The notes beneath the pieces are model-generated. The model made no database searches. It saw only the letters and a list, made by a program, of their open reading frames with translations, and was not told where the DNA came from. A program made the translations under genes and the position numbers. From Comamonas odontotermitis (lineage in GTDB: Bacteria > Pseudomonadota > Gammaproteobacteria > Burkholderiales > Burkholderiaceae_C): DNA of 64,000 nucleotides. The DNA lies in assembly GCF_020080045.1 (NCBI RefSeq), contig NZ_CP083451.1, positions 1,984,001-2,048,000 on the forward strand, written 5' to 3'. Position 1 is the first letter of the stretch; each line of letters opens with the position of its first letter. Shown piece after piece: positions 4,192 through 28,492 of the stretch.

Positions 4192-4938
4192 TCAATCCAG
4201 CAGAAAGCCTAGCGCGGCGCGCAACTGCCCGGCAGCATGCTGTTCGATCACCGTGTCGTGCGCCAGCACGATGCGCTGTACGGGCCAGCTGCAGATCACC
4301 TGTGCGGCTGCGCGTGCGGCCGCCTTGTCACGGATGGCAAAGCGCACGGCCCGTGGCATGGCCAGGCGGCTACGTGTGCCGTTCAGGCTGTTGAACAGGC
4401 GCGCCGACAGCGACAGATCCTGCGGGTAGTACTGCAGCACATCCGTCACGATCAGGCTGCCGCTGGGCTGGTGCAGCCACACGCATTCATTCAGCAGCGG
4501 AATGCCGCCCACGCATTGCATCTGCAAATGGTTGCGCCAGGCGGAGGGCGTGGCGGAATCGTCCAGCTGGCCCAGTGGGCCCGGCTGTTTTGGCAGGGTC
4601 TGCAACTGCAGCAGATCGCGCCTTTTGGCCGCGAGGCCTGGCGCCCCCCACAACTGTGCCTTTGGATAGAACGGCAGCCAGTCGCCAGCATACAAATGGT
4701 GCATGCGGTTGGGGGCCACCACCCAGGCCACGCTGCCCAGGGCATCGAGCGCGGCGCGCAACTGCGGTGTGGGCGCGACGGGCGAGTGCAACCATAGCTG
4801 GTGGCCGGCCAGCCGGGCCACAGTCATGCGCGTGCGCAGTGGCAGGCCTTGCACACTGATGCGCTGCTGCGCGCTCCATAGATCGGGCGCCAACGGGGTC
4901 AACGGCAGGGAATCATGAGACGACGGATGGGACGACAT
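4192..4938 (-). CDS. DUF4336 domain protein
   Basis: A 248-residue protein that resembles the DUF4336 family, which is related to metallo-beta-lactamase-fold proteins but lacks the standard HxHxDH motif. Recognisable stretches are LAPDLWSAQQ near the N-terminus, RMTVARLAGHQLWLHSP, VVAPNRMHHLYAG in the middle and LNECVWLHQPSGSLIVTDVL towards the C-terminus. The ATG at 4938 is chosen because the protein similarity begins there; an ATG at 5025 in the same frame would add 29 residues of unlikely composition. Its biochemical role is unknown. It is transcribed away from ndh. Confidence 0.8.
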   Translation of the reverse strand: MSSHPSSHDSLPLTPLAPDLWSAQQRISVQGLPLRTRMTVARLAGHQLWLHSPVAPTPQLRAALDALGSVAWVVAPNRMHHLYAGDWLPFYPKAQLWGAPGLAAKRRDLLQLQTLPKQPGPLGQLDDSATPSAWRNHLQMQCVGGIPLLNECVWLHQPSGSLIVTDVLQYYPQDLSLSARLFNSLNGTRSRLAMPRAVRFAIRDKAAARAAAQVICSWPVQRIVLAHDTVIEQHAAGQLRAALGFLLD

Positions 4939-5258
4939 GGAGGGCTGTGGATAGATGCAGGAGGGCCGCGGAACATTGAGGCAGGGTGGCATGGGAACCG
5001 GCCCAGTGTAGGGGCAGAACTGCATATGCCAGCTTGGCTGAAGTCCCCTCAGCGCGACGAGTACAGACCAAGAACCTGTTCAAAGGGCGCGGGTTGTCTG
5101 GGCTGCACTTGCTGCTTTGTATACGCCAGATCGTATAGGCAGAAACGTCGTCTTTTTGTATATACATTCAAGAATGTATGTTAAATTTGACTTAAGTTAA
5201 GCTACGGTTCAACCTGAGATCGAAAGACCGTACCGGAGACCGTGCAAAGGAGTGGCAG
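4939..5258. other. Intergenic region upstream of ndh
   Basis: No gene is seen in this 320-base stretch. It carries a short match to a repeat end (AAGAACCTGTTCAAAG near 5070) that is also present at 12956-12997, a dyad ATACG...CGTAT near 5120-5136 and the stronger inverted repeat at 5162-5179. Composition becomes AT-rich from about 5110 to 5200, as expected for the ndh promoter. Confidence 0.5.
5162..5179. promoter_or_regulatory. Inverted repeat upstream of ndh
   Basis: Perfect eight-base arms ATACATTC and GAATGTAT separated by AA lie 80 bases before the ndh start codon in AT-rich DNA. The size and place suit an operator for a dimeric repressor. I cannot name the protein. Confidence 0.4.
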
Positions 5259-6539
5259 ATGCACTATGACGTGGTAATTGTGGGTGGGGGCGCCGGGGGC
5301 CTGGAGCTGGCCGCACAGCTGGGACGCAAGCTGGGGGCGCGAGAAGGGCGCGAGCGCGTGCTCCTGGTGGACAAGATGCCCTTCCACATCTGGAAGCCCA
5401 CCTTGCACGAAGTAGCGGCAGGCACGCTCGACGCGCACCAGGAAGGGCTGTCGTACACCGTGCTGGCCCGGCGCAACCATTTCAGCTTTGTGATGGGCGA
5501 GTTCATGGCGCTGAACACCGCGCAGCAAAGCATTCGCCTTGCGGCGATCACCAATGAGGCGGGCAAGGAAGTGGTGCCCGAGCGCAGCATTGGCTACCGG
5601 CACCTGGTGCTTGCGCTGGGCAGCGGCTCCAATTCGTTTGGCACACCGGGCATCGAGAACGCCTATCTGCTCGAAAGCGTGCGCGACGCGCAGCGCTTCC
5701 ATGCCGACTGGCTCAGTGCCTGTGCCCACGCCTCGTATGCCGAGCCACGCTCGCTGTCGGTGGCCATCGTGGGGGCGGGCGCTACCGGCGTGGAGCTGTC
5801 GGCCGAACTGCTGGAGGCCCACAGCATGCTGCAGGAGAGCCAGGGCAGCAACCAACGCTTTCGGCTGGACATCAACCTGATCGAAGGAGGCGACCGCATT
5901 CTGGGCGGGCTGCCACCGCGCATATCGGAGCAGGCCACCACTGCGCTTGAGCGCAAGGGTGTGCGCGTGATGACGGGCACCCGCGTGCAGGCGCTGGAGC
6001 CGGGCGAAGTGATCACGCCTGATGGCCCTGTCTCGGCAGATCTGATCGTCTGGGCTGCCGGCATCAAGGCAGCCGACCGCAATGCGCTGCTGGGCCTGGA
6101 GGTGAACCGCATCAACCAGCTGGTGGTGAATGACCATCTGCGTACCAGTGCGCATCAGGTCTATGCGCTGGGCGACTGCGCAGCAACGCCATGGGTAGAT
6201 GGAAAGACCGTACCCGCCCGTGCGCAGGCCGCGCACCAGCAAGGAACCTATCTGACCCAGGTGCTGTATGCCGCGCTGAAGGAAGGGCACTTCAACGAGC
6301 CCTTCGTCTACAAGGATTTTGGCTCGCTGGTCTCGCTGGGTGACAACAAGGGCGTGGGCAACCTGATGGGCGGCCTGTCCGGCAAGAACTTCTTCGTGCA
6401 GGGGCTGCTTGCCAAGTGGATGTACATGTCGCTGCACCTGATGCACCACCGAGCCATTCTGGGCACGGTCAAGACGGCAGTACTGGCCCTGGCGCGCCTG
6501 CTGCAGCAGCGGGTGTCTGGTCGCATGAAGCTGCATTGA
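5259..6539 (+). CDS. ndh: Type II NADH dehydrogenase (NAD(P)/FAD-dependent oxidoreductase)
   Basis: Single-subunit NADH:quinone oxidoreductase that passes electrons from NADH to the quinone pool without pumping protons, bound to the inner face of the membrane. It has 426 residues. The FAD-binding motif is VIVGGGAGGLEL at the N-terminus and the NADH-binding motif is VAIVGAGATGVELSAEL near residue 170. The stretch YALGDCAATPW near residue 310 is the second FAD site. The C-terminal 60 residues are basic and hydrophobic, fitting membrane attachment. AAAGGAG lies just before the ATG. A truncated repeat element follows the stop codon directly. Confidence 0.9.
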   Translation: MHYDVVIVGGGAGGLELAAQLGRKLGAREGRERVLLVDKMPFHIWKPTLHEVAAGTLDAHQEGLSYTVLARRNHFSFVMGEFMALNTAQQSIRLAAITNEAGKEVVPERSIGYRHLVLALGSGSNSFGTPGIENAYLLESVRDAQRFHADWLSACAHASYAEPRSLSVAIVGAGATGVELSAELLEAHSMLQESQGSNQRFRLDINLIEGGDRILGGLPPRISEQATTALERKGVRVMTGTRVQALEPGEVITPDGPVSADLIVWAAGIKAADRNALLGLEVNRINQLVVNDHLRTSAHQVYALGDCAATPWVDGKTVPARAQAAHQQGTYLTQVLYAALKEGHFNEPFVYKDFGSLVSLGDNKGVGNLMGGLSGKNFFVQGLLAKWMYMSLHLMHHRAILGTVKTAVLALARLLQQRVSGRMKLH

Positions 6540-6541
6540 TC

Positions 6542-6611
6542 AAAAAAAGACAACGCAGCGGATCGCCCGAAGCCGTGTTCAGACCACGGCAGGGCGTTTT
6601 GCAGAGGGGCC
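6542..6611. repeat. Truncated copy of repeat family A
   Basis: These 70 bases match the right half of the complete 161-base element at 17163-17323 with only a few differences, ending in GTTTTGCAGAGG. The left half and its terminal inverted repeat are missing. The copy begins two bases after the ndh stop codon and lies between the convergent ndh and luxR-type genes. The short stem CCGTG...CACGG inside it could add to transcription termination. Confidence 0.75.
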
Positions 6612-6625
6612 CTGGTGGCGTTGGA

Positions 6626-7216
6626 TCAGGCCTCGTCCGGCCCCAGCACGATATCGAGCGAGCTGCCACCGGCCAGCAGTTTCTGCACCAGGGCTGCGGA
6701 TGATTCCGCGCCGTACTTGCGCATCAGGCGGGTGCGGTAGATCTCGACGGTGCGGTGGCTGATATCGAGGCAGCGGCCGATCTCCTTGCTGGTCATGCCT
6801 TCGAGCAGGCGGGCGGCCACCTCGCGCTCGCGCGCTGTCAGTTCGGCGCGCACCGGGCGCAGCGCGCTCAGGTCTTCAAAGCTCCACACGCCGCCTTCAT
6901 GCGGATCGTCGCGGTTGAAGGCCCGGCCCATCACATGGCACCAGAACATCTCGCCGTTGGCGCGCTTCATGATGCGGTTGTCCGAATACAGGCCTTGCGC
7001 GCCCATGATGGGAGCAATGCGCCGGCCCAGGCGCTCGAACTCGTCGGCGCTGGGGTAGAGGATCTGGAAGGACTGGTTGATCATCAGCTCGCGCGAAGTG
7101 CGGAACATGGAACAGACCTGTTCGTTGCAGTCGATCATGATGCGGCGGTGCGAAACCACCAGGCCCACGGGCGCCATCTCGAAGGCCTGTCGATAATCAA
7201 GCGGTGTCACTCGCAT
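6626..7216 (-). CDS. PAS domain LuxR-family transcriptional regulator
   Basis: A 196-residue regulator with an N-terminal PAS sensor domain (about residues 8-115, with the typical NRIMKRANGEMFWCHVMGRA stretch) and a C-terminal LuxR/FixJ-type helix-turn-helix (about residues 128-190: LTAREREVAARLLEGMTSKE, then RTVEIYRTRLMRKYGA). It lacks a receiver domain, so it probably senses a small ligand or redox state directly. It is divergent from the CoA-transferase operon and the 92-base gap contains a perfect 26-base inverted repeat, so it very likely controls scoAB and itself. Confidence 0.9.
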   Translation of the reverse strand: MRVTPLDYRQAFEMAPVGLVVSHRRIMIDCNEQVCSMFRTSRELMINQSFQILYPSADEFERLGRRIAPIMGAQGLYSDNRIMKRANGEMFWCHVMGRAFNRDDPHEGGVWSFEDLSALRPVRAELTAREREVAARLLEGMTSKEIGRCLDISHRTVEIYRTRLMRKYGAESSAALVQKLLAGGSSLDIVLGPDEA

Positions 7217-7240
7217 GGCAAAAATTGTCCCCTTTACGAA

Positions 7241-7266
7241 ATACTACGTATGCTAATACGTAGTAT
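7241..7266. promoter_or_regulatory. Operator-like inverted repeat between luxR-type gene and scoA
   Basis: Eleven-base perfect arms ATACTACGTAT (7241-7251) and ATACGTAGTAT (7256-7266) enclose GCTA. The site sits in the divergent promoter, 42 bases before the scoA GTG and 24 bases before the regulator's ATG. This is the most regular dyad in the window and the likely binding site of the PAS-LuxR protein. Confidence 0.7.
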
Positions 7267-7308
7267 GCTTCATTCGCGGAACAAGCCCTTCTTAATTAGG
7301 AGACACGT

Positions 7309-8010
7309 GTGAACAAAATTTATCCGAATGCGGCAGCTGCACTCCAAGGCGTGGTCGCAGACAACCAGTTGCTGGCCGTGGGCGGTTTTGGCCTATGTGG
7401 CATCCCCGAGGCGCTGATCGAAGCGCTGCGCGACAGCGGTGCCAAGAATCTGACCGTGGCATCGAACAATGCCGGCGTCGACGGTTTTGGCCTGGGCAAG
7501 CTTTTGGAGACCCGCCAGATCAAGAAGATGATCGCATCGTACGTGGGCGAGAACAAGGAGTTCGAGCGCCAGTACCTGGCAGGCGAGCTGGAACTGGAAT
7601 TCACGCCCCAGGGCACCCTGGCCGAAAAGATGCGTGCTGGCGGCGCCGGCATTCCCGCCTTTTTCACCAAGACCGGTGTGGGCACGCAGGTGGCAGAAGG
7701 CAAGGAACTGCGCGAGTTCGATGGCGAGACCTATGTGATGGAGCGCTCCATCGTTGCCGATGTGTCGCTGGTCAAGGCCTGGCGTGCCGACAAGAGCGGC
7801 AACCTGCAGTTCCGCCTGACGGCACGCAACTTCAACCCTGCAGCGGCCACCTGCGGCAAGGTCTGCATCGTGGAAGTGGAAGAGATCGTCGAGACCGGCG
7901 CCTTGAAGCCCGACGAAATCCACCTGCCTGGCATCTATGTGCACCGCCTGGTGCTGAACGCCACGCCCGAGAAGCGCATCGAAAAGCGCACCATCACCGA
8001 GAAGAAGTAA
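7309..8010 (+). CDS. scoA: 3-oxoacid CoA-transferase subunit A
   Basis: Alpha subunit of a two-subunit CoA-transferase that moves CoA from succinyl-CoA to a 3-oxoacid such as acetoacetate. It has 233 residues, the family norm. [10 protein letters not shown] near residue 28 is the conserved glycine-rich stretch, and [12 protein letters not shown] and [16 protein letters not shown] are typical. The start is GTG at 7309 with AGGAG seven bases upstream. The beta subunit follows after ten bases. PcaI or AtoD-type specificity cannot be excluded; the absence of catechol or butyrate genes nearby favours the succinyl-CoA:3-ketoacid type. Confidence 0.93.
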
Positions 8011-8020
8011 GGAGCCTGAC

Positions 8021-8659
8021 ATGCCTTGGACCCAAGACCAAATGGCCGCACGCGCGGCGCAAGAGCTGGAAGACGGCTTCTACGTCAATCTCGGCATCGG
8101 CATTCCTACCCTGGTGGCCAACCACACCGGCGACAAGGAAGTGTGGCTGCAGTCGGAAAACGGCATGCTGGGCATCGGCCCATTCCCCACCGAAGACGCC
8201 ATTGACGCCGACCTGATCAATGCTGGCAAGCAGACGGTGACGACCATCGCCGGCTCGTCCATCTTCAGCTCGGACCAGTCGTTTGCGATGATCCGTGGTG
8301 GAAAGATCAACCTGTCCATTCTGGGCGCCATGCAGGTGTCCGAGAAGGGTGACCTGGCCAACTGGATGATTCCGGGCAAGATGGTCAAGGGCATGGGCGG
8401 CGCGATGGATCTGGTCGCTGGCGTCAAGCGTGTGATCGTGCTGATGGAACACGTGGCCAAGAAGAAGGACGGCACCACCGACCTGAAGATCCTCAAGAAC
8501 TGCACCTTGCCGCTGACCGGCGTGGGCGTGGTCGATCGCATCATTACCGACCTGGGCGTGTTCGATGTGACCGAGCAGGGCCTGAAAGTGATCGAGCTGG
8601 CCCCCGAGGTGAGCTTTGACGACGCGCAATCCAAGACGGGTGTGACGCTCATCAAGTAA
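8021..8659 (+). CDS. scoB: 3-oxoacid CoA-transferase subunit B
   Basis: Beta subunit carrying the catalytic glutamate, which forms the glutamyl-CoA thioester. It has 212 residues. The conserved [11 protein letters not shown] stretch and [12 protein letters not shown], whose Glu is the active-site residue, are present. It begins ten bases after scoA with AAGGAG before the ATG and ends in a strong terminator, so the operon is scoAB only. Confidence 0.94.
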
Positions 8660-8682
8660 GCGCTGCATGCGTTGAAAACAGG

Positions 8683-8708
8683 AACGCAGCCCCCGGGCTG
8701 CGTTTTTT
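8683..8708 (+). terminator. Intrinsic terminator of scoAB
   Basis: Ten-base arms AACGCAGCCC and GGGCTGCGTT with a two-base centre are followed by a run of T ending at 8708. This is a clear rho-independent terminator, 23 bases after the scoB stop. Confidence 0.9.
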
Positions 8709-8736
8709 GTGGCCCGGTGCCGGAATATTCAGCACC

Positions 8737-9654
8737 TCAGACTGGTGGCGCCTCGCGCAGAAAATCGATGAACGCCCGCAGCTTGGGAGGCATCTGTTTG
8801 CGCGCAGGGTAGTAGATGTGAAAGCCCGACCAGGGCCTCTCGAACGACTGCAAGGCGGGCACCAGCAAGCCGGTGGCAAGCTCCTCCTGAATGCTGCCCA
8901 CAAACTTGTGCGCTACGCCATAGCCCTGGCAGGCAGCGCGGGTGACATAAGCGTCGTCCGAAAAGATCAGGCGCCCGGTGGGTTCAATAGCTTGTTCCTT
9001 GCCATCCACCACAAAAATCCAGGGCACAAAACGCTTGGAGCCGGGAAGCCGAAAACGGATGCAATCGTGCAGGGCCAGATCGGCCGGAGTCTGCGGCATG
9101 CCGTGTGCCTGCCAGTATGCGGGGCTGGCGACCACGGCTTCCCACTGGCCCTGGTCGAGCGGCAGCGACACCATGTCGCGTGCCAGAAAGGCGCCGAGGC
9201 GAATGCCTGCATCAAAGCCATCCTGCACGATGTCGGAAAACGCATCGTCGGTGAACAGCTCCAGCTGAATGCGCGGGTAGCGCGCCAGAAAGGCATCGAG
9301 CCGGGGCGTGATGAGCAGCCCCGCCGCCAGCCGCGAAGTATTGATGCGCAGCAAGCCGGTGGGCTCATCATGCGCGGCGCGCACCCTCTGCATGGCAAGG
9401 TCGAGCTGGTCCAGCGACGGCGTCACCTCTGCCAGCAGCTGCTCACCCGCTTCGGTGACGGAGACCTGGCGGCTGTTGCGCTGCAGCAGGCGCACCTCCA
9501 GCTGTGCTTCGAGCTTGCGCATCTGCTGCGAAACGGCAGACGCGCTGATGCCCAGCTGGTTGCCCGCCTGGGTAAAGCTGCGCACGCGCGCCACCAGTAC
9601 AAAGGTGCTCAGCGCATTCAGCGAATCGCGCTGGATAGATAAGTTTTTCTTCAC
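8737..9654 (-). CDS. LysR-family transcriptional regulator
   Basis: A 305-residue regulator with an N-terminal winged helix-turn-helix (SFTQAGNQLGISASAVSQQM) and a C-terminal effector-binding domain. I chose GTG at 9654. An ATG at 9738 in the same frame would reach into the divergent gene and adds an atypical N-terminus. It is divergent from a serine hydrolase gene 75 bases away, which is its likely target. The effector is unknown. Confidence 0.88.
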   Translation of the reverse strand: MKKNLSIQRDSLNALSTFVLVARVRSFTQAGNQLGISASAVSQQMRKLEAQLEVRLLQRNSRQVSVTEAGEQLLAEVTPSLDQLDLAMQRVRAAHDEPTGLLRINTSRLAAGLLITPRLDAFLARYPRIQLELFTDDAFSDIVQDGFDAGIRLGAFLARDMVSLPLDQGQWEAVVASPAYWQAHGMPQTPADLALHDCIRFRLPGSKRFVPWIFVVDGKEQAIEPTGRLIFSDDAYVTRAACQGYGVAHKFVGSIQEELATGLLVPALQSFERPWSGFHIYYPARKQMPPKLRAFIDFLREAPPV

Positions 9655-9729
9655 GATGGATGAAGTGTTGCACGCTTTCTCTTGAACGTGAAGTGACGGA
9701 CACTGCGGTTTTCCGCCAAGGAGTTCTCC

Positions 9730-10992
9730 ATGAACCATGTGTTTGCCACCATGGCACGGCCGCTTGCCGCCGGTCTGCTTTCACTGGCCTCCATCGCCCA
9801 CGCGGCCAGCGACGCTGCGCTGGAGCAACGCGCCCGGCTCGCCGCCAATCTCAACACGGTGCTGGATGCGGCCGTTGCGCAAAAGCGAATCGTGGGCGCC
9901 GTGGTGTTGGTGGCGCAGGATGGAGCCGTGCTCTACCGCCAGGCCGTTGGCTATGCAGACCGTGAAGCACAGCGGCCTATGCAGGCATCGACCGGCTTTC
10001 GCCTCGCCTCCATGACCAAGCCGATCGTCACGCTGGCCGCCATGCGGCTGGTGGAAGAGGGCAAGCTGCAGCTGGATGCGCCCGTCACCCGGTACCTGCC
10101 GGATTTCCGGCCGCCCCTGGTAACGGCCCATGGCGAGAAGACCGTGCCCACGCTATCGGTGCGCCAGCTCATCACCCACACCTCGGGCCTGGGCTATGGA
10201 TTTGCGGAAGGGGCCGATGGTGCCTACACCCGACTGGGCGTCTCCGACGGGCTCGACAGCAGCGGCATCAGCCTGGATGAAAACCTGCGCAGGCTGGGCA
10301 AGGCGCCGCTGTACTTTGCCCCGGGCAGCCAGTGGCGCTATTCGCTGGGCATCGACGTGCTGGGCGCCGTCGTCGCCAAGGCAGGGGGCGCTCCGCTGCA
10401 GCAGGTGGTGGCGCAGTCTGTGACCCAGCCCTTGCAGATGCACCACACCCGTTTTGCGGTGCGTTCGGGGTCGCCGCTGGCGGTCCCCTATGCCGACGGT
10501 AAGCCCCAGCCCGTACGCATGCGCGAGAACATGGTGGTTCCCCTCGCTGCTGGGCAGGATGGGGGTGTGCGCTTTTCTCCCAAGCGGGCATTTGACCGCC
10601 ATGCCTTTGCATCCGGCGGCGCAGGCATGGTGGGCAATGCAGACGACTACCTCCAGCTGCTGGAATCGGTCAGGCGCAGCGCCGCCGGGCAGCCCGGCCT
10701 GCTGCAGCCTGGAGCTGCGCAGGAGATGGTGCGTGACCAGGTCGGCCCGCAAGCCCAGACGCAGGGCCCGGGTTGGGGTTTTGGCCTGGGCTGGGCGGTT
10801 CTGGTTGACCCGGCCCTGGCCGGAACACCGCAGGGCAAGGGCAGCCTGCAATGGGGCGGGGCGTATGGACACAACTGGTTTGTCGATCCCGAGCGCCGCC
10901 TGAGCGTGATCCTGCTCACCAACACGGCGTTCGAAGGCATGGCAGGTCGGCTGGTCAACGAAGTGCGGGATGCGGTCTACGCTTCGCTGTAA
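9730..10992 (+). CDS. Serine hydrolase of the beta-lactamase/penicillin-binding family
   Basis: A 420-residue exported protein of the class C beta-lactamase and esterase (EstB-like) family. A signal peptide spans about residues 1-26 with cleavage near AHA-AS. The catalytic Ser94 and Lys97 are in SMTK and the second motif is Tyr204 in RYSLG. Near residue 375 GGAYGHNWF takes the place of the KTG box, as in many family esterases. The substrate is unknown and real beta-lactam hydrolysis is less likely than an esterase or D-amino-peptidase activity. It is paired with the divergent LysR gene. Its last 16 bases overlap the convergent macro-domain gene. Confidence 0.88.
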   Translation: MNHVFATMARPLAAGLLSLASIAHAASDAALEQRARLAANLNTVLDAAVAQKRIVGAVVLVAQDGAVLYRQAVGYADREAQRPMQASTGFRLASMTKPIVTLAAMRLVEEGKLQLDAPVTRYLPDFRPPLVTAHGEKTVPTLSVRQLITHTSGLGYGFAEGADGAYTRLGVSDGLDSSGISLDENLRRLGKAPLYFAPGSQWRYSLGIDVLGAVVAKAGGAPLQQVVAQSVTQPLQMHHTRFAVRSGSPLAVPYADGKPQPVRMRENMVVPLAAGQDGGVRFSPKRAFDRHAFASGGAGMVGNADDYLQLLESVRRSAAGQPGLLQPGAAQEMVRDQVGPQAQTQGPGWGFGLGWAVLVDPALAGTPQGKGSLQWGGAYGHNWFVDPERRLSVILLTNTAFEGMAGRLVNEVRDAVYASL

Positions 10993-11486
10993 TTTGCCAA
11001 GGCCTGGCCTGCCCCGCTTGCACCGCGAAAGCGCACCAGCCGCACATGCGCCTTGCTGTCGATGGTGTTCAGGCTCTCCTGCATCCAGTGCAGGGCCTGC
11101 TCCTCGCACAGCCCGCCGGTGCCTGCCCCCAGGGCGGGAAAAGCCACGGAGCGGTAGCCGCGCGTATTGACGATCTGCATGGCCGAATGCACGCTGGCCT
11201 GGATGGAAGCCTGCGACGCACGCCACCACATATCGATACCGGCCACGTGCACGATTGCCTTGAACGGCAACCTGCCTGCGCAGGTAGTCACGGCGCCGCC
11301 CAGCGGAATGGCGCCCAGCATGCCCAATTGCCAGAAGGGCCGGTAGCCCGCCCGCTTCTTGATGGCGCTCGATACGCCGCGCGGCAGCAGCAGCCACCAG
11401 GGAATGATGTTGCGATTCCAGGCGTTGACAATCACATCCACTGGCTGGTCCAGCAGGTTGCCGTCGATGATTTCTATGTTTTTCAT
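10977..11486 (-). CDS. Macro domain protein (ADP-ribose-binding fold)
   Basis: A 169-residue single macro domain. Recognisable parts are IEIIDGNLLDQPVDVIVNAWN at the N-terminus with the conserved Asn-Ala, a glycine-rich GAIPLGGAVTT loop and FPALGAGTGG, which is the phosphate-binding loop. Such proteins bind or hydrolyse ADP-ribose derivatives. The ATG at 11486 is chosen where the domain begins; ATG at 11534 with AGGAT upstream is also possible and would add 16 residues. Its 3' end overlaps the convergent serine hydrolase gene by 16 bases. Confidence 0.8.
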   Translation of the reverse strand: MKNIEIIDGNLLDQPVDVIVNAWNRNIIPWWLLLPRGVSSAIKKRAGYRPFWQLGMLGAIPLGGAVTTCAGRLPFKAIVHVAGIDMWWRASQASIQASVHSAMQIVNTRGYRSVAFPALGAGTGGLCEEQALHWMQESLNTIDSKAHVRLVRFRGASGAGQALANYSEA

Positions 11487-11701
11487 AGCATTTAGCGTTT
11501 GACTGGTGGACGCCAGAGGCAGTTTTGATGACATATCCTGAAACCGAGGATAGCGATGGATTGCGGACACAATTGGCAGAAATACGGAGCGCATGCAGGA
11601 GACAGTAACAGCCGGTTTGTGCCCCAGGCGCTTGCCTGCGGCTCGGGCGCCTTCCATACTGGTGGAACTTCTTCCGTCTTCCTCTACAGAGTGGCCGCCC
11701 C

Positions 11702-12445
11702 ATGAATGCACCCCATACCCCAGGCAGCACAGCGCACCCCTTGTTCACCGATCCCGATGTCGTCCAGATGCGCGAGGACATGGCGCTGGCCCTGCGTGCG
11801 GCGGCGCATTTCGGCCTGGGCGAGGGCGTATGCAACCATTTCAGCATGGCGCTGCCCGATGGCAGGCACTTTCTGCTCAACCCGCGCGGGCTGATGTGGA
11901 GCGAGGTACAGGCCGATGATGTGGTGATCGTCGATGACCAGGGCTGCGTGGTCGCAGGTGGCCACGCTGTGGAGCCTACGGCCATGTTCATCCACACGGC
12001 GGTGCACCGCATCGCCCGCAAGACCTGCGTGCTGCATACGCACATGCCTCACGCCACCGCGCTCACCCTGACGCAGCAACGCGCGCTCGACACCACCTTG
12101 AGCCAGAACGCAATGCGCTTTCATGGCCGCGTGGCGGTGGACAGCCAGTACAACGGCTTTGCACTGGATGGCCGCGAAGGCGAACGCATTGCCCATGCCA
12201 TGCAGGGCGCGGACATCAGCTTTCTGGGCAACCACGGCATCATCGTTTGCGGCGAGCGCATGGATTACGCCTTTGACGATCTGTACTACCTGGAGCGTGC
12301 CTGCCAGGCCCAGGTACTGGCGCAATCGACCGGAGTGCCACTGGCGCCCTGTGATCCGGCGCTGGCCGCACGGGTGGCCAAGCAGGCCAACGGCGAACGC
12401 CTGCAATCGACCCTGTTTTTTGAAGCGCTGCGCAGAAGGCTGTAA
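11702..12445 (+). CDS. Class II aldolase/adducin family protein
   Basis: A 247-residue cytoplasmic protein of the zinc-dependent aldolase/adducin fold. Metal-binding histidines are visible in VLHTHMPHATAL and in FLGNHGIIVCG. HFGLGEGVCNHFSM and LLNPRGLMWSEV are the usual N-terminal motifs. Proteins of this kind act on sugar phosphates or on hydroxy acids; the true substrate cannot be read from the sequence. A GNAT acetyltransferase gene begins six bases after its stop, so they are likely co-transcribed. Confidence 0.88.
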   Translation: MNAPHTPGSTAHPLFTDPDVVQMREDMALALRAAAHFGLGEGVCNHFSMALPDGRHFLLNPRGLMWSEVQADDVVIVDDQGCVVAGGHAVEPTAMFIHTAVHRIARKTCVLHTHMPHATALTLTQQRALDTTLSQNAMRFHGRVAVDSQYNGFALDGREGERIAHAMQGADISFLGNHGIIVCGERMDYAFDDLYYLERACQAQVLAQSTGVPLAPCDPALAARVAKQANGERLQSTLFFEALRRRL

Positions 12446-20878: not shown

Positions 20879-21786
20879 AGTGGCTCCTAAAAAGAAAGCG
20901 GCTCAGCGGTCGCTGGCCAGGATGAAAACGGTGAACACACAGCGCTGCAGCCCTCCGCCGCGCGCCGCTTGCAATGTACCTGCAAATTGCTTGCCAAAAG
21001 TAACATTTCTTCCAATTGGCCGCCATCAGGGATTTCAACAATATCGAAATTTTGTAGGTCTTGTTTTTTCTTTTGTTGAGTGTGTTATGAAAGATTGTTC
21101 AACGATTTAAGGGGTCTTCTCAGGCTTTCTTGGTGGCTAGATGGGGATGCGTGGTCTGCAAAATCTCTTCCAAGCTTTCTCTACATCTGTAGGGCGTAGT
21201 GCGCTGAGCGTAGGTACTCTTACGGTGAGATGGTCGACCGTCTTGCTTGAATCATCTCACTCACAGCAATTTTTGGCGTATTTCCGCAGCCTGAAAGCAT
21301 TGCTGAACTGCAGGGCCTTTTCCTCAGCAGATTAACAACACTGAGCTATTCAACAAAGGCTAACGCTGCCAGTGGCGGCGGGCGAACGGCAGTTCGGCTT
21401 TCGCATCAAGGTATCTTCCAAGTGACAGAGGTGGCTGACTTTTGATCTAAAGCAGCATCAGTCTATAGACCTCGGGTTACTACCAGTGTTGTAGCGATCC
21501 ACTATCGATAAATAATTAATAATTGCAAAAATATATCTAGTGTGTTCGCAAATTTCTTAGTGTGCAGTGCATCAATTTGGAGATTAAGATTATTAAAATT
21601 TATACAGGAGACTAAGATAATATTGCTAATCTCGAGGTCTTTCATGAGGAAATTTTGTAGTCAAAAACGTATTTAAAATTAGTATTCATTTTTTATAATG
21701 AAAGCAAAAGGCAATTCGGGTTAAATTCAGTAATTTTTATAATAACTTGATATATGAATGCTCAATGGAATTATTTTCAGCCAGTC
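20879..21786. other. Long AT-rich gap at the left side of the Rhs island
   Basis: This 908-base stretch holds no gene I can support. The first 200 bases must contain the TRAP operon promoter on the minus strand. From about 21050 onward composition is clearly AT-rich, especially 21500-21786. A 64-codon open frame at 21141-21335 has no recognisable domain and a composition that does not look coding. A mixed segment at about 21340-21440 is more GC-rich. Such a gap fits the edge of horizontally acquired DNA with decayed genes. Confidence 0.55.
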
Positions 21787-22518
21787 ATGAGAAATGAAAT
21801 AATTTTCACAACAGTGGCTGTTGTTTATTTCAGTGTCAATGCTGCCCAGCCACCTCAATGGTGTGATTTGAATGAAGAAAATTCCAGGGCAGGGTGTGAT
21901 CAGTATTTCAGTTCAAGGCAAGAGGCTGCTGATTATTTATCAGAAAAATATAAAATAACATATCTGCCCGATTACGAATATACTGCTCCAGCCTCTGTTG
22001 GTGCATATACGGGATATGATGTTGTTTCTTGGACTAGGGAGGGTAGATTTTGGAATCCTACTTCCAATTCTTGGGTGCGCCATCTCAATGGGAAAAATAT
22101 TTTCAAATATTGCCCGCCCATACCCAAAGGGAGTAGGTATAACCCAGGAAGTGATGAGGCTATCGCATGCGGAGGGAGCGAGATATCCATAAGCGGCCCA
22201 TCATTAACAACAGCACTTCCCCAAGGCCCAAGCCTTCCACAGAAGATATCTATTCTTACTGGCGGATATCGACCATTGGCAGAAAATGCCTTTTCTTATC
22301 AATTCATTGAAAATGGAAAAATAATATTTCAGGATAGTATAAAGACTGACTCAAATGGAGAGGCATTTTTAACCTATGTTCCACCATATTTTCTTAATGC
22401 CAAAATAGAAATCAAGGCAACTTGTAGTGAATGCACGAATACTGCATTGCAAGAAATATCTGTCCAGGGCCTGCTGCTGCCTGCCTCTGTTGAAGAGCCT
22501 CAAATTTGTCGACGCTAG
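21787..22518 (+). CDS. Secreted protein with C-terminal Ig-like module, upstream of rhs
   Basis: An unrecognised, AT-rich gene of 243 residues. It has a likely Sec signal (RNEIIFTTVAVVYFSVNA, cleavage near NAA-QP), a cysteine-containing N-terminal region (WCDLNEENSRAGCDQYF) and a C-terminal beta-rich module of about 100 residues. That module contains TDSNGEAFLTYVPPYF, reminiscent of bacterial Ig-like domains, and the cysteine pair TCSECTN. It ends in EEPQICRR. The next gene shares the module and the last eight residues apart from one. An ATG at 21754 in the same frame is an alternative start. Low GC compared with the neighbours suggests transfer. The function is unknown. Confidence 0.65.
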   Translation: MRNEIIFTTVAVVYFSVNAAQPPQWCDLNEENSRAGCDQYFSSRQEAADYLSEKYKITYLPDYEYTAPASVGAYTGYDVVSWTREGRFWNPTSNSWVRHLNGKNIFKYCPPIPKGSRYNPGSDEAIACGGSEISISGPSLTTALPQGPSLPQKISILTGGYRPLAENAFSYQFIENGKIIFQDSIKTDSNGEAFLTYVPPYFLNAKIEIKATCSECTNTALQEISVQGLLLPASVEEPQICRR

Positions 22519-22679
22519 CCGTCTTTGCTTCACATTTTTTAGACTTCATTCGAATGAATTTATGCTGAATCAATCCTCATGTAATTTGTATTAAATTTTA
22601 TAATTGTAAATAAGAAATCTTTGAAGATAAGAAATTTACAAAACTTCTTATTATTGATGTTCATTGGAATTTTCCTTGT

Positions 22680-23625
22680 ATGAATACAAGATTGTTGACG
22701 GTAATGAAGGCGGGCTTTCTTGCTTATATATTTTTTGCTCAAAATGCGATAGCGGGCGACTGCATGATGTGGCCTAGTAATTACTATTGTTGCGATCCGG
22801 AAAAGGCAGTTTGCACGCCAAGAGCAAGTCATTTGAAGTATACATCGCAAACTGGTGATTATGCGCCTCCTGGTTATCCATCTGAGGTGGCTGGGGGGGG
22901 GCTTGGGGTATTATAGATTGAATCTGTCTTCTGCTTCTGAAGCCGTGGAGTGGAGGGTAAAATTCATGCAGGCATATTGGAATAATGTGCAAAGTTGGTT
23001 TCCCGATGGACTCCATGACCAATGTGCACCTGTTGAGTCTTCTGGTCCCGACGGAGATTGGAGTGCTCCTTTGGTAGATTTGACATTATGGAATTCTCAA
23101 TATCAATCATGGAACACCGTGGCATATAAAAAATCTGGAGGTCCTGGAATTCCTGCCTCCTGCAACCCGCCCGGTCCGCTAGTGCAACCATTCTCCATTA
23201 TGAGATATTTAGTAGAGGAAGATTGCCCATCCAATGAGACTGAAGCCTTCTCGATCATTGACGACTCGCGTGTTTGCAAGAAGGAAATACCAATCGAGAT
23301 AGCCATACACGGAGCATCGTCAACGTATTCTTTGCCATCAATTGTTGGCCCAATCCCGCAGGTAATTGAACTTAAAAGAAAAGGTTTGCCGGTGAAATTG
23401 GAGCAAGTATTTTTGAAATTAAGAGGTGCGGATGATACTCTGCTTCAAAATCATTCAGGATCAACTGATGATTCTGGCAAGTTTTATTTCACTTATGTTC
23501 CTCCATTTATGCAGAGATTAGATGTGAAAATAGAAGTCTCCTGTATGGAATGCAGCATCACAGCTTCAAAAGTAATTAGTGTTTTGAAGAGCGAATCAGA
23601 AGAGCCGCAAATGTGCCGCCGCTAG
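22680..23625 (+). pseudogene. Frameshifted, possibly phase-variable, paralogue of the upstream secreted protein
   Basis: The reading frame from ATG 22680 begins with a signal peptide (KAGFLAYIFFAQNAIA, then GDC) and runs to a stop at 22916. The continuation lies in another frame up to 23625. The switch is at a run of nine G (22893-22901). With eight G the whole stretch would read as one 314-residue protein. The C-terminal part resembles the upstream gene: DDSGKFYFTYVPPF, the pair SCMECS and the ending EEPQMCRR. The N-terminal parts differ. Either the gene is off in this isolate by slipped-strand mispairing, or the tract length is a sequencing error, or the gene is dead. Confidence 0.75.
22893..22901 (+). 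repeat. G9 homopolymer causing the frameshift
   Basis: Nine consecutive G, preceded by CT and followed by CTT. Loss of one G joins the two open frames of the secreted-protein gene. It stands out in a locally AT-rich gene. Confidence 0.85.
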
Positions 23626-23678: not shown

Positions 23679-26600
23679 ATGACCATTGATCCGCTCATCC
23701 GGCGCAAGCTGCTGCCTTTCTCTCTCAAGCCCGCCTTGCGCGCCCTGGTCGCTTTTGGTGCTTTTGGTGCTCTAACCACCCTGGGCACCTTCACCTTCAT
23801 GACTGGCCCGGCCCAGGCCCAGAGCATCCCCAATGGCCCCGAGAACTTCCAGGCGCAAACCGACTGGGTTGACCAAAGCCCCAGCCCACTCACCCTGGGT
23901 CACATCTACCGCAGCTTTGGCGACCCCGATGAAGATGCCGACATCGGCATGGGCAAGGGCTGGATGCACTCATGGTCGGGCCGCATCAAGCTACCCAAGT
24001 ACTACGACGCCCGCTACCCCTCCAGCCTTGCAGTGGTGCTGCCCGATGGCACCTCAGCGCTATTTCTCAAAGAAATCGGAGAGCAGTCGCCGTGGCTTGC
24101 GGCAACTGGGGCGGACTGGATTCAGGGCTCGGTGGGAGGCGCCTGGCAATACCACCGCGCCAGTGACGACAGCGTTTGGAAGTTCGACAACAAAGGCTGG
24201 CTCACCAAGATCACCTTGCGCAATGGCTGGAACTACAGCATCTTGCAAACCAACGGCAAGGTCCTCTCTGTTGCCAACTCCTTTGGGCGCGGGCTGAGCT
24301 TTAGCTACCGGACCGATGGCAGGCTGGGCTCCGTCACCTTGCCCGACGGCAACGCCGTCAACTACGACTACAACGCCAAGGGAAGCCTAAGCTCCGTCAA
24401 GGTCAACAGCTACCAGACCCACGCCTACAGCTACGGCAACACCACCTTCCCGGGCCTGGTCACTGCAGTGGGCGATGCCCAAGGCAACCAGATACTGGGC
24501 TTTACCTATAACGCCGATGGCTCGCTGAACCAGACCACGCGGGCAGGGGTCACCGGTGCCTACCAGGTTTCCTATGCAGGCGCGGCTAACGTCGGCTCCG
24601 CTGGCATGTTGGTGGCCGCTGGTACGGACGATCCCAACTGGTACAAAGCCTCGGTCACCACGACCGACCCCCATGGCAACAGCACCACCCGCCAGTACCA
24701 GGGCACGGCCAGTGGCGTGCGCATGGTCGGGCAGAACAATGCGCGCTTCTGGGACAAATTCAAGGAAGAGCTCAACACCGACCTGCTGCCTGCCTCCAAA
24801 GAAGACTTCCAAGGCAACAAAACCACCTACCAGTGGAACACCAACCGCCAGCTGATCACCCAGGTGGTGGCTGCCTCCAACCGCCCAGAAGCCCAAATGG
24901 CCCAGATCGAGTGGCATCACACCATGTCACTGCCCACCAAGATCACCGAGGCGGGGCGCATCACCCAACTGAGCTACGACGACGGCGGCAACCTCGTGGG
25001 CACCCTGGTCACGGACACGGCCAGCGGCAAAGCCTACTCCAGCGCCTGGGCCTACAACCCCAATGGCCTGCCGTACTCCTACACCGATGCGGGCGGTCAG
25101 ACGGTATTTGGCTACGACACCAAAGGCAACCTCAACAAGGTCACCGACCCCCAGGGGCGCATCAGCCAGTACACCCACGATGGCGCAGGCCGCATCCTCA
25201 CCGCCACCGAGCCCTCGGGCCTTGTGCGCGTCTACAGCTACAACCCCAAGGGCCAGCTCACCAGCTTCAGCGCTGGGGGCTTGCTCACCACGCTCAGCTA
25301 CCTGCCCAACGACAAGCTGGGCACCGTCACATTCGCCAACGGCTACGCCATCACCTACCAGTACGACGGCGCCCTGCGCACCAGCAACTGGAGCGACAAC
25401 CGGGGCAACTCCGGCCAGTACACCCTCGACGCGCAAGACAACGCCACCAGCACCATCGTCAAGGACAGTGCGGCCAATACTGCCTTGCAGGTACAGCGCA
25501 CGATCAACAGTCTGGGCAAGGTGGCAAGCGAGACCCGAGGCGCCAACCAAAGCACAAGCTTGGGCTATGACGCCAATGGCGACCTGACCACGGCCCGCAA
25601 CGGCCTGTCTCAAACCACCACGCTTGCAGTGGACGGCCTGCGCCGCCTGAACAAAGTCACCGACCCACTGAACAATTCCGCCACGCTCACCTACAACCAG
25701 CTGGACGCCATCACCGCCGCCAAAGACTTCAAAGGCGTCACCACCAGCTACACCCGCGATGCGCTGGGCAACGCCAAGCAAGAAGTCACCCCCGATGCAG
25801 GCACGGGAGCCGCCACCTACGACGTGCGCGGGCTCCTGGCATCCACCACTGATGCCACAGGCCGCACCATCGGCGTAGAGCGCGACGCGCTGGGCCGCAT
25901 CACCAAGATCAACTACAACAACGGCACCTCGTCCGTGCTGCGCTACGACCTCACCGGCACCACCTACAACACCGCTGCCGCGCCCAATGCCAGCATCGGG
26001 CACCTGAGTGAAGTACAGGACCCGGGAGTCACCACCCAGTACCAGCGCGACGCGCTGGGCCGCGTGCTGCGCAAGACCCAGATCCTGGCAGGCGGTGAGA
26101 CCCGCTCCATCGCCTACAGCTACGTGCCAGCAGGCCAGGGCGGGGCAGGCAGCGTGCAAAGCATCACCTACCCCTCGGGCAAGCAACTGGCCTACCAGTA
26201 CGACAGCATGGGCCTCATTACCGGCATGCAGTGGAACGGCACGGCACTCCTCTCGGGCCTGACTTGGAGCCCACTGGGCATGCCCACAAGCTGGAGCTGG
26301 CCCGGCATTCTGGCTGGGGCAGGGGCCAGCAGCACGCTGGCAGAAGCGCGCAGCTACAACACGGCAGGCCAGCTCACCCACACCGGCATCCTCGACCTGA
26401 CCTGGGACGCGGCAGGGCGCGTGTCTGCCATCGAGCAAAGCCAGATGGTGCCAGGCAGTGCTGCAGGCCAAGCGCCACAGAACGCCCGCATCGCCAGTGC
26501 CTACAACTACGACGCAACCGGGCGCCTGATCGCAAGCGGCCACAGCCTCAAGAGCACGCCCACGGTCAACTGGCCCCGAGTAGGCACCTTGGCCACGAAC

Positions 26601-28031
26601 CTTCTTGATGTCGCAGGCTACAACTCCATCGGCTATGCGTATGACGCCAATGGCAACCGCCTCTCGGCCTCCATTAACAAGAATCCGGCTTCCAGCAGCA
26701 GCACCACAACCATCCGTGCTTACAGTTTGACTGCAGGCACCAACGTCCTTGCCAGCATCACCAGCGTCACCAACCCTGGCGGGGTAGCCGGTGCCACCAA
26801 AACCTACCAGTACGACGCAGCAGGGGCCATCACCGCAGCCACTACAACTGGCACTACCAGCGGAGCCCAATACCTGCACTACGGCGCCAATGGTCGCGTC
26901 GCCAAAGTCACCGGCACGGCCAGCAGCACCGACCCCAGCGCTGTCAGCTACTTCTACAACAGCGCAAGCCAGCGCCTGCTCAAAACCGATGCACGGCAAA
27001 GCACCACGGCCCCGCGCACCGAGCACACCCTCTACAGCGAAGAAGACAGCGCGCAACTCCTGGGCACCTACAGCAACCAGCGCAGCGCAAGCTCGGCAGC
27101 GCCCGCAGGCGAGATGGACAGCACCGAAGTCATCTACCTGCCCACCGCCCAAGGCATGGTGCCAGTGGCGGCCCAGATCAACGGGCGCCTGTACGCCATC
27201 CATGCCGACCACCTGAGCACCCCCAGGCGCCTGACCAACCAGCAAGGGCAAGTGGCTTGGCAGTGGCTCCTGACTGGGTTTGGCGAAGTGAGCCCGACCA
27301 CCGGGGCGAAAGGCTACGTGCAAGCGGACAGCCCAGTCGCTGGCAGCCTGCCTAGCTACGCGCCAGAGGTGACATTCAACCTGCGCTACCCGGGCCAGCA
27401 GTGGGACGAAGAGACGCAGCTGAGCTATAACGTTAACCGGTACTATGGGCCGCAGGAGGGGAGGTACATCCAGGCTGATCCGATTGGGCTGGATGGCGGG
27501 TGGAATCGGTTTGCCTATGTGGGCGGGAATCCGCTCAATGGGGTTGATCCACTAGGGCTCTTTGAAGTGGTTTGGCACGGTAAAGACTTCACTACTCCTC
27601 CGCCTTCGTGGGTTAGACAATTGCGTGAATATGGTGCTAAGTTAGAGACGAAAATTAAATCTCTGTGCGCTTCTGATTCCGAGTATTTGTTATCTTATTA
27701 TTCCAAATGGAAAGTTGGGGCAAATGGAAGACCGGGCAGTCCAACGACTGATCCTAAAATTTTTTATACGAATTTCACATCTGATTATTTTAAGCTTGAA
27801 AATAATTTTTTTAATCCATTTGAAAAAGGTAGCGAGGATCCATATGCGGTGTTCTTGCATGAGTTTCGCCATCTCATGAATGGCAATGTAAGATTAAATC
27901 CCGGTGGGTCAGAGTATTTAAAGCATAGATTGAATGGCACAACAAATACATTATCAATTGAAATCGACGCTGATGCCTATGCTTTGGAGTTGTTCAAGGG
28001 GAAATGCACATGTGGAAGTATGCAGCGATAG
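23679..28031 (+). CDS. Rhs/YD-repeat protein with a metalloprotease-like C-terminal tip
   Basis: A 1450-residue polymorphic-toxin-type protein. Residues 1-47 look like a Sec signal with cleavage at AQA-QS, so export is not by a PAAR/type VI route. Many YD repeats follow (YDANG, YDGALR, YNYDATGRL), and the Rhs-associated core ends with YYGPQEGRYIQADPIGLDGG and DPLGL at 1290-1294. The 156-residue tip after DPLGL is AT-rich, unlike the GC-rich core, as expected for an exchangeable toxin domain. It contains His1394-Glu-Phe-Arg-His1398 and, about 30 residues later, Glu1428 in EIDADAYALEL. This HExxH plus ExDA pattern resembles ImmA/IrrE-like zincins, so a zinc protease is inferred. The last 22 bases overlap the downstream small gene. 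Confidence 0.9.
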   Translation: MTIDPLIRRKLLPFSLKPALRALVAFGAFGALTTLGTFTFMTGPAQAQSIPNGPENFQAQTDWVDQSPSPLTLGHIYRSFGDPDEDADIGMGKGWMHSWSGRIKLPKYYDARYPSSLAVVLPDGTSALFLKEIGEQSPWLAATGADWIQGSVGGAWQYHRASDDSVWKFDNKGWLTKITLRNGWNYSILQTNGKVLSVANSFGRGLSFSYRTDGRLGSVTLPDGNAVNYDYNAKGSLSSVKVNSYQTHAYSYGNTTFPGLVTAVGDAQGNQILGFTYNADGSLNQTTRAGVTGAYQVSYAGAANVGSAGMLVAAGTDDPNWYKASVTTTDPHGNSTTRQYQGTASGVRMVGQNNARFWDKFKEELNTDLLPASKEDFQGNKTTYQWNTNRQLITQVVAASNRPEAQMAQIEWHHTMSLPTKITEAGRITQLSYDDGGNLVGTLVTDTASGKAYSSAWAYNPNGLPYSYTDAGGQTVFGYDTKGNLNKVTDPQGRISQYTHDGAGRILTATEPSGLVRVYSYNPKGQLTSFSAGGLLTTLSYLPNDKLGTVTFANGYAITYQYDGALRTSNWSDNRGNSGQYTLDAQDNATSTIVKDSAANTALQVQRTINSLGKVASETRGANQSTSLGYDANGDLTTARNGLSQTTTLAVDGLRRLNKVTDPLNNSATLTYNQLDAITAAKDFKGVTTSYTRDALGNAKQEVTPDAGTGAATYDVRGLLASTTDATGRTIGVERDALGRITKINYNNGTSSVLRYDLTGTTYNTAAAPNASIGHLSEVQDPGVTTQYQRDALGRVLRKTQILAGGETRSIAYSYVPAGQGGAGSVQSITYPSGKQLAYQYDSMGLITGMQWNGTALLSGLTWSPLGMPTSWSWPGILAGAGASSTLAEARSYNTAGQLTHTGILDLTWDAAGRVSAIEQSQMVPGSAAGQAPQNARIASAYNYDATGRLIASGHSLKSTPTVNWPRVGTLATNLLDVAGYNSIGYAYDANGNRLSASINKNPASSSSTTTIRAYSLTAGTNVLASITSVTNPGGVAGATKTYQYDAAGAITAATTTGTTSGAQYLHYGANGRVAKVTGTASSTDPSAVSYFYNSASQRLLKTDARQSTTAPRTEHTLYSEEDSAQLLGTYSNQRSASSAAPAGEMDSTEVIYLPTAQGMVPVAAQINGRLYAIHADHLSTPRRLTNQQGQVAWQWLLTGFGEVSPTTGAKGYVQADSPVAGSLPSYAPEVTFNLRYPGQQWDEETQLSYNVNRYYGPQEGRYIQADPIGLDGGWNRFAYVGGNPLNGVDPLGLFEVVWHGKDFTTPPPSWVRQLREYGAKLETKIKSLCASDSEYLLSYYSKWKVGANGRPGSPTTDPKIFYTNFTSDYFKLENNFFNPFEKGSEDPYAVFLHEFRHLMNGNVRLNPGGSEYLKHRLNGTTNTLSIEIDADAYALELFKGKCTCGSMQR

Positions 28032-28492
28032 GTTCAACTTTATTTTTGTCTTCTTCTATTGCTGTCGCTGACGCAAGTAATTGGACATATACCCCAATTG
28101 GGGATAGACAGGCAGCAATATTCTTCTCGATGAGTGATCAGGAGATTACATCTCATTTATATAAAGGAAAGATTTCATTTTGCGAAAGCACTGAAGATTT
28201 TTTTTGCTTTTCGACGGAATATTTTAATTTTGCTATTCCTAAGAAAAATAAAAATAGAATCTCGGAGTGGAGGAGGAATGGAATTGGTTTTAATTCAAAA
28301 AAATTGACATCTCCAATTAAAATAATGGGGAAGGAGATCGATGTGTACAAAATTTCTTCCCAGAAGCCTGATGTTGAATATTATTATTCTGATTTTTATG
28401 GTTTAGTGGCTTTTAGAGCCCAAGGTAAAGACGGGCAATTATTTATTCTTGAGGAGAGTTGCGGTTTTGGTTCTTCGAAATTGTGCAAATAA
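28010..28492 (+). CDS. Candidate immunity protein, exported
   Basis: An unrecognised, AT-rich gene of 160 residues that overlaps the rhs 3' end by 22 bases. ATG 28010 is chosen because AAGGGG lies eight bases upstream; ATG 28004 is the alternative. The N-terminus is a probable Sec signal (MWKYAAIGSTLFLSSSIAVA, then DAS), so the product acts outside the cytoplasm. It has two cysteine pairs (FCESTEDFFCF and CGFGSSKLC) that could form disulfides. Position, overlap, size and composition are those of the immunity gene of an Rhs toxin tip. That role is inferred from context only. Confidence 0.65.
   Translation: MWKYAAIGSTLFLSSSIAVADASNWTYTPIGDRQAAIFFSMSDQEITSHLYKGKISFCESTEDFFCFSTEYFNFAIPKKNKNRISEWRRNGIGFNSKKLTSPIKIMGKEIDVYKISSQKPDVEYYYSDFYGLVAFRAQGKDGQLFILEESCGFGSSKLCK

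Follow-up and report, generated by a model that had tools for sequence, protein, structure and literature searches.

Several described toxins resemble the locus reported here in their catalytic signature, their carrier or the way in which they are neutralised. In the case of Pseudomonas aeruginosa VgrG2b, the C-terminal domain shares with the present tip an HExxH signature of the gluzincin type followed by a later Glu; it kills from the periplasm and is neutralised there by PA0261, an exported, cysteine-bearing immunity protein (PMC6899460). Unlike the Rhs tip here, VgrG2b is carried by VgrG and the type VI secretion system (T6SS), and its first His and third ligand (H935 and E983) lie farther apart than those of the tip (H1394 and E1428). 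VgrG2b and PA0261 belong with the Tpe–Tpi pairs of P. aeruginosa and Acinetobacter baylyi, in which a periplasm-active toxin goes with an immunity protein that is exported or held in the membrane and whose cysteines are partly conserved (excerpted text of PMC6899460). Tox-MPTase1-5 and Tox-HopH1 are C-terminal HExxH metallopeptidases of RHS-repeat toxins, some with export through Sec and the type II secretion system (T2SS), a route that the table of PMC3482391 includes for RHS-repeat toxins. Unlike the tip here, they have no immunity partner in that table, and secreted or membrane immunity proteins are called exceptional in the same source. Bcn-A of Xanthomonas perforans, compared by description, is an Rhs protein of similar size (1398 aa) that is found in the supernatant, has a linked immunity gene and loses its activity in a T2SS (xpsD) mutant (PMC7259588). 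Its tip is not described as a protease in the excerpted text of PMC7259588, the product of its immunity gene (ORF5) is predicted in the inner membrane, and three further ORFs of the locus are reported as mattering.

In the window, the whole 64,000-nucleotide stretch of Comamonas odontotermitis DNA analysed here, an Rhs gene ends in a tip with an HExxH signature and is overlapped by the gene of a small, exported-looking partner (Table 1). The locus is probably an antibacterial Rhs polymorphic toxin locus with a periplasm-acting metallopeptidase tip and an exported immunity protein. The analysis itself shows the conserved signature, the gene linkage, the signal-like starts, an orphan copy of the partner and two unmatched T6SS markers; zinc binding, protease activity, toxicity, exit through the T2SS, entry into the target and the substrate are inferred. 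The sequence-only reading had suggested an undescribed effector pair; systems of this kind are known, and it is the tip family and the partner family that appear new, neither having a convincing library match. A literature search, judged by titles and the beginnings of abstracts and mostly outside subscription journals, returned no description of this pair. To our knowledge, how Sec-exported Rhs toxins of Gram-negative bacteria lacking a T6SS reach and enter their rivals has been little studied.

Table 1. Features of the Rhs locus, in positions of the window
Feature	Position	Strand	Basis or remark
Upstream ORF 1, 254 aa, seven cysteines, signal-like start	21754..22518	+	signal rule positive
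Upstream ORF 2, 256 aa, with a C-terminal part paralogous to that of ORF 1	22855..23625	+	signal rule negative
Rhs protein, predicted toxin carrier, 1450 aa	23679..28031	+	RHS_repeat E 1.8e-49; Rhs_assc_core (residues 1231-1294) E 5.1e-21
Residues 1-47 of the Rhs protein, signal-like	23679..23819	+	hydropathy rule
Tip boundary, two DPxGL motifs, residues 1267-1294	27477..27560	+	pattern search
C-terminal tip, 156 aa, predicted zinc metallopeptidase toxin	27561..28031	+	directly after DPLGL
HEFRH at residues 1394-1398; H1394 and H1398 predicted to bind zinc, E1395 predicted to be catalytic	27858..27872	+	invariant in 8/8 members
EIDADAYALEL at residues 1428-1438; E1428 predicted as the third zinc ligand	27960..27992	+	E, D and A of ExDA invariant in 8/8
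Predicted exported immunity protein, 160 aa	28010..28492	+	homologue beside the tip in 8/8 loci; signal-like start

The Rhs carrier

The carrier is built from YD/RHS repeats and an Rhs-associated core that ends in DPxGL ahead of a variable tip, the organisation of an Rhs polymorphic toxin. Two such motifs, DPIGL and DPLGL (residues 1290-1294), are separated by a spacing of 18 residues. A Photorhabdus Rhs protein with two DPLGL motifs at a spacing of 17 residues cleaves itself after them and so frees its tip (excerpted text of PMC8636562). The Rhs core has a G+C content of 0.633, whereas that of the tip is 0.391 and that of the small partner gene 0.350, a drop that fits the expectation for an exchanged tip cassette. 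The Pfam search found the RHS repeats and no PAAR or VgrG part in the protein, and the start is positive by the hydropathy rule, so that a Sec-type start without a PAAR or VgrG link, as read from the sequence beforehand, was borne out. A possible cleavage site follows AQA, judged by eye. The RR pair at residues 8-9 was not taken as a Tat signal because, on inspection by eye, the hydrophobic stretch begins only near residue 22.

Two AT-rich ORFs (21754-23625) precede the Rhs gene; they have a common C-terminal domain (36.8% identity between ORF 2 and ORF 1 across 114 residues) and both end in CRR. The C-terminal part of ORF 1 is similar to the N-terminal region of a G047 Rhs protein (L104) with an E-value of 1.2e-5, and ORF 1 had no match in Pfam or NCBIfam. 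Both may be split-off carrier parts. ORF 1 is a possible accessory whose membership in the system is uncertain, and an accessory role for ORF 2 is likewise uncertain. A promoter and terminator scan, in which terminators were no richer than noise, was left unused.

Export route

Signal calls were made with a home-made hydropathy rule in a strict and a permissive form. All five tip carriers with an available Rhs N-terminus (the window, L007, L008, L013 and L014) have a signal-like start by eye; in the other three, the N-terminus is cut by a contig end or displaced. Among sampled Rhs proteins of the same bacterial family, 42 of 60 pass the strict rule, compared with 22 of 397 segments from protein interiors used as controls. 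Of the 18 that fail, about ten nevertheless appear exported when inspected by eye, and two are truncated at a contig end. In the window's genome, signal-like starts were likewise seen by eye in two further long YD-repeat proteins (2464 and 2469 aa). Sec export is thus the norm for Rhs proteins in this family and not an oddity; with literature precedents as well, the earlier view of it as unusual is not supported. A general pairing of Sec-exported Rhs proteins with exported immunity proteins was tested and found no support, 23 of 57 downstream genes in the sample being called exported or membrane-type against 24 of 57 ORFs of the window.

The secretin gene product GspD scored above the cut-off in all six carrier genomes, against matches in 6 of 14 well-known control genomes, two of them above the cut-off; GspD is needed for type II secretion but does not suffice for it, and the Gsp genes by themselves prove neither use of a T2SS nor exit of this Rhs protein. 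TssC was found in three of the six carrier genomes and had no match in those of the window, G127 and G015. VgrG had no match in the window's genome or G015 and a sub-cut-off match alone in G127. With GspD present and TssC and VgrG unmatched in the window's genome, which is listed as 100% complete in 3 contigs, Sec export followed by type II secretion is the likely route. Delivery by a type VI or another contractile system would accord with the statement that most rhs genes lie in T6SS clusters or hcp-vgrG islands (excerpted text of PMC8636562) and with the TssC genes of half of the carrier genomes. Such delivery is nevertheless highly improbable for this protein, which begins with a signal-like sequence, contains no PAAR, VgrG or Hcp domain and comes from a genome in which the T6SS markers covered by the search (TssC and VgrG) are unmatched.

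The tip domain and its zincin signature

The sequence-only reading had placed a 156-residue tip after DPLGL, with HEFRH at residues 1394-1398 and EIDADA from residue 1428, and both motifs lie where it put them. In 200,000 shuffles of the tip, HExxH alone arose in 0.56%, and HExxH followed by ExDA 20-60 residues on arose 4 times. Conservation is a better test than shuffling because the pattern was picked after being seen. Across the alignment of eight tips, the residues C36, W50, P61, T70, H100, E101, F102, R103, H104, M106, N109, E134, D136, A137, A141 and C151 (tip numbering) are invariant. The six tips outside Comamonas are only 19-31% identical to the window tip; nonetheless, HExxH, the later E and the two cysteines are invariant. 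The pattern, HExxH with a downstream Glu kept in all eight members as in gluzincins, looks like a preserved metal site.

Libraries and structures gave little for comparison. All eight tips were without a match in Pfam and NCBIfam at an E-value of 0.001 or better. Pfam includes models for several Tox-MPTase families, and none of its toxin-metallopeptidase models matched any of the eight tips at E-values up to 10. The weak library matches to Lit (0.022), Reprolysin_5 (0.062) and eCIS_core (0.16) were too weak for use. Sequence searches of the PDB matched only unrelated proteins, with no VgrG2b chain among the matches listed for the tip profile. The AlphaFold model of the tip, from an alignment of four sequences, was poor (pLDDT 52.1), and Foldseek and VIA-align searches with it found no credible match. 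A tip that has lost or never had peptidase activity, or that has another metal-dependent activity within what would still be a toxin–immunity pair, is compatible with the poor models, the blank fold searches and the missing significant profile link to a peptidase family; against this, HExxH and ExDA have stayed unchanged although the members have diverged strongly, and we consider it unlikely.

A likeness to the ImmA/IrrE peptidases (M78) had also been proposed. Peptidase M78 and the tip are alike in having HExxH followed by E-x-x-A-D-x-x-A. In a profile comparison, the HExxH and E..AD..A elements of the two were paired in register at a probability of 25%; the M78 profile was made of three sequences, since eight of nine matched loci were translated and only three had HExxH in the stretch. 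PF06114 matched none of the eight tips at E-values up to 10, and the class-level tip profile touched an ImmA/IrrE-like protein (L037) at an E-value of 0.007, which is within chance for 369 genomes. The motifs align, and we take ImmA/IrrE as a resemblance of the tip and not as a membership. We know of no M78 proteins that are Rhs tips.

Relatives and distribution of the tip

The tip family comprises eight distinct loci, namely the window and seven further members: L010 (C. odontotermitis), L003/L007 (G119), L004/L008 (G127), L005/L009 (G015), L036 (G885), L013 and L014. The closest relative, on the C. odontotermitis contig NZ_JACHKZ010000040.1 (L010), is 96% identical; beyond this species, members were found in three further genera of the same family, in another family of the Gammaproteobacteria and on two IMG/VR contigs. 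The family-level search with the tip alone matched 5 of 399 genomes, and the tip profile matched 2 of 53 genomes at genus, 1 of 399 at order and 1 of 299 at phylum level, the window's own being included each time; these counts are lower bounds because the first-look search step limits sensitivity. At class level, 5 of 369 genomes matched, and the window's own and G885 were accepted. The rejected ones were L037, which looks by eye like a protein of the ImmA/IrrE type, L038, whose frame overlaps other reading frames, and L039, which has internal stops. Plasmid and phage collections contained no match to the tip. L013 and L014 sit near the ends of contigs classed as viral by IMG/VR; repeat viral scans with the tips found no contigs beyond these two, and the L014 partner, used as a query, matched its own contig only.

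The arrangement of the carriers varies. In L007 and L008, a long exported-looking ORF (893 and 873 aa, respectively) lies upstream of a shorter tip-bearing Rhs protein, as if the carrier were split in two. L009 (G015), L066 (G000) and L008 (G127) contain tandem displaced Rhs C-terminal pieces with different tips, as in orphan-tip arrays.

The partner gene

Directly behind the tip, a homologous partner gene is present in all eight loci, in G015 split between two frames; its absence beside homologous tips, which would have spoken against a pair, was thus not observed. In all eight loci, the partner gene overlaps the tip gene, its first listed start falling 19-56 bases ahead of the point where the tip gene ends. 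In the window, the ATG at 28004 or that at 28010 could serve as the start. A stretch AAGGGGA, located by eye, ends 1 base before the former and 7 bases before the latter, a good spacing for the ATG at 28010, and this start, giving 160 aa as first proposed, is preferred. The Sec-type signal proposed for the partner is matched by a signal-like start under the simple hydropathy rule. All seven intact partners have such a start under the permissive form of the rule, which also marks 24 of the 57 ORFs of the window; the case for export accordingly draws on the recurrence in every intact member and not on the home-made rule alone.

The alignment of seven partners contains nine invariant residues (Y29, C60, C68, P79, W89, G109, S129, G133 and G154). 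None of the seven matched Pfam, nor the window's partner NCBIfam, at an E-value of 0.001 or better. Two tips and two partners likewise found nothing in PHROGs and PADLOC at 0.001, the best match (phrog_10198, 0.0098) being too weak. The AlphaFold model of the partner, made from four sequences, is mostly beta with low confidence (pLDDT 52.6), and Foldseek found no credible match with this poor model.

When the seven-partner profile was run over the 3567 ORFs of the fetched loci, the extra matches were two pieces in L005 and one orphan, L078:5825-6304 in genome G126, at an E-value of 9.9e-20. By eye, the orphan follows an Rhs gene whose tip is unrelated and the ankyrin-like partner that belongs to that tip, and G126 gave no tip match at an E-value of 0.01 in the family-level search. 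Retention of the partner in the absence of its toxin is what immunity genes typically show, and it is the strongest argument for an immunity role. It also bears on two alternatives. A tip that processes or matures its own Rhs protein, with the partner as a regulator or chaperone, would have a precedent in the PVC-type metallopeptidases, which are releasing enzymes in some polymorphic toxins (excerpted text of PMC3482391). This is quite improbable given that the domain lies at an exchangeable C-terminal end with a G+C break and occurs on differently built backbones, and that the partner is also found without the tip. Action of the tip on eukaryotes or extracellular proteins, with the partner shielding the producer's own envelope proteins, is improbable as well: the Rhs protein probably ends outside the cell and a secreted protease can have many targets, but the dedicated partner and its orphan in G126, where no tip matched, better fit an attack by other bacteria.

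Proposed mode of action

In the preferred reading, that of an antibacterial toxin with its immunity protein, the Rhs carrier would be exported by Sec and then probably leave the cell by type II secretion, and the tip would be released at the DPLGL boundary. The tip would be a small zinc metallopeptidase, with H1394, H1398 and E1428 as the candidate ligands and E1395 as the putative catalytic residue; after entering a competing cell, it would cleave some protein of the periplasm or envelope and thereby act as a toxin. The product of the overlapping gene, a small exported protein, would neutralise the tip in the periplasm of the producer, most simply by binding. An exported partner implies a toxin active outside the cytoplasm. 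The two invariant cysteines of the tip fit a periplasmic compartment, where they may form a disulfide. Since tip and partner recur together in other bacteria, they most likely form a small, uncatalogued toxin–antidote family.

A more specific proposal is that of an Rhs capsule released by Sec and the T2SS, carrying a new zincin clade together with a dedicated family of exported immunity proteins (motif C-x(6-7)-C) and needing no T6SS; this we regard as conceivable but rather doubtful. If true, it would represent an envelope-protease weapon for bacteria without a T6SS. The locus adds two unnamed domain families, one of which is also found as an orphan immunity gene, and it is in line with the idea that, in this bacterial family, many Rhs proteins are bacteriocins released by secretion rather than effectors of a T6SS. 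With tip and antidote both seemingly periplasmic, the question of inner-membrane crossing is avoided, which makes the pair a convenient test case.

Other Rhs proteins

Further Rhs genes were noticed during the searches. In L067 (G000:C1:2361000-2375000), a locus of the window's genome, the minus strand (4651-12344) encodes a second exported-looking YD-repeat protein of 2469 aa with a His-rich tip, presumably resembling phospholipase C-type toxins as judged by eye, followed by a 95-aa membrane-type ORF. In L069 (G000:C1:3946000-3958000), another Rhs ORF of the window's genome adjoins a 512-aa transposase-like ORF that is also present in L067. Three of the 60 sampled Rhs proteins (L103 in G079, L127 and L100 in G127) contain another HExxH in their last 400 residues; these ends may be further metallopeptidase tips. 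A scripted scan found an exported-looking gene behind L103 and L127 and none behind L100. Meanwhile, Rhs core matches lie in open frames of 13,633 residues (G078:C2, near 116143) and 14,318 residues (G034:C10, near 51464), possibly giant Rhs-type proteins.
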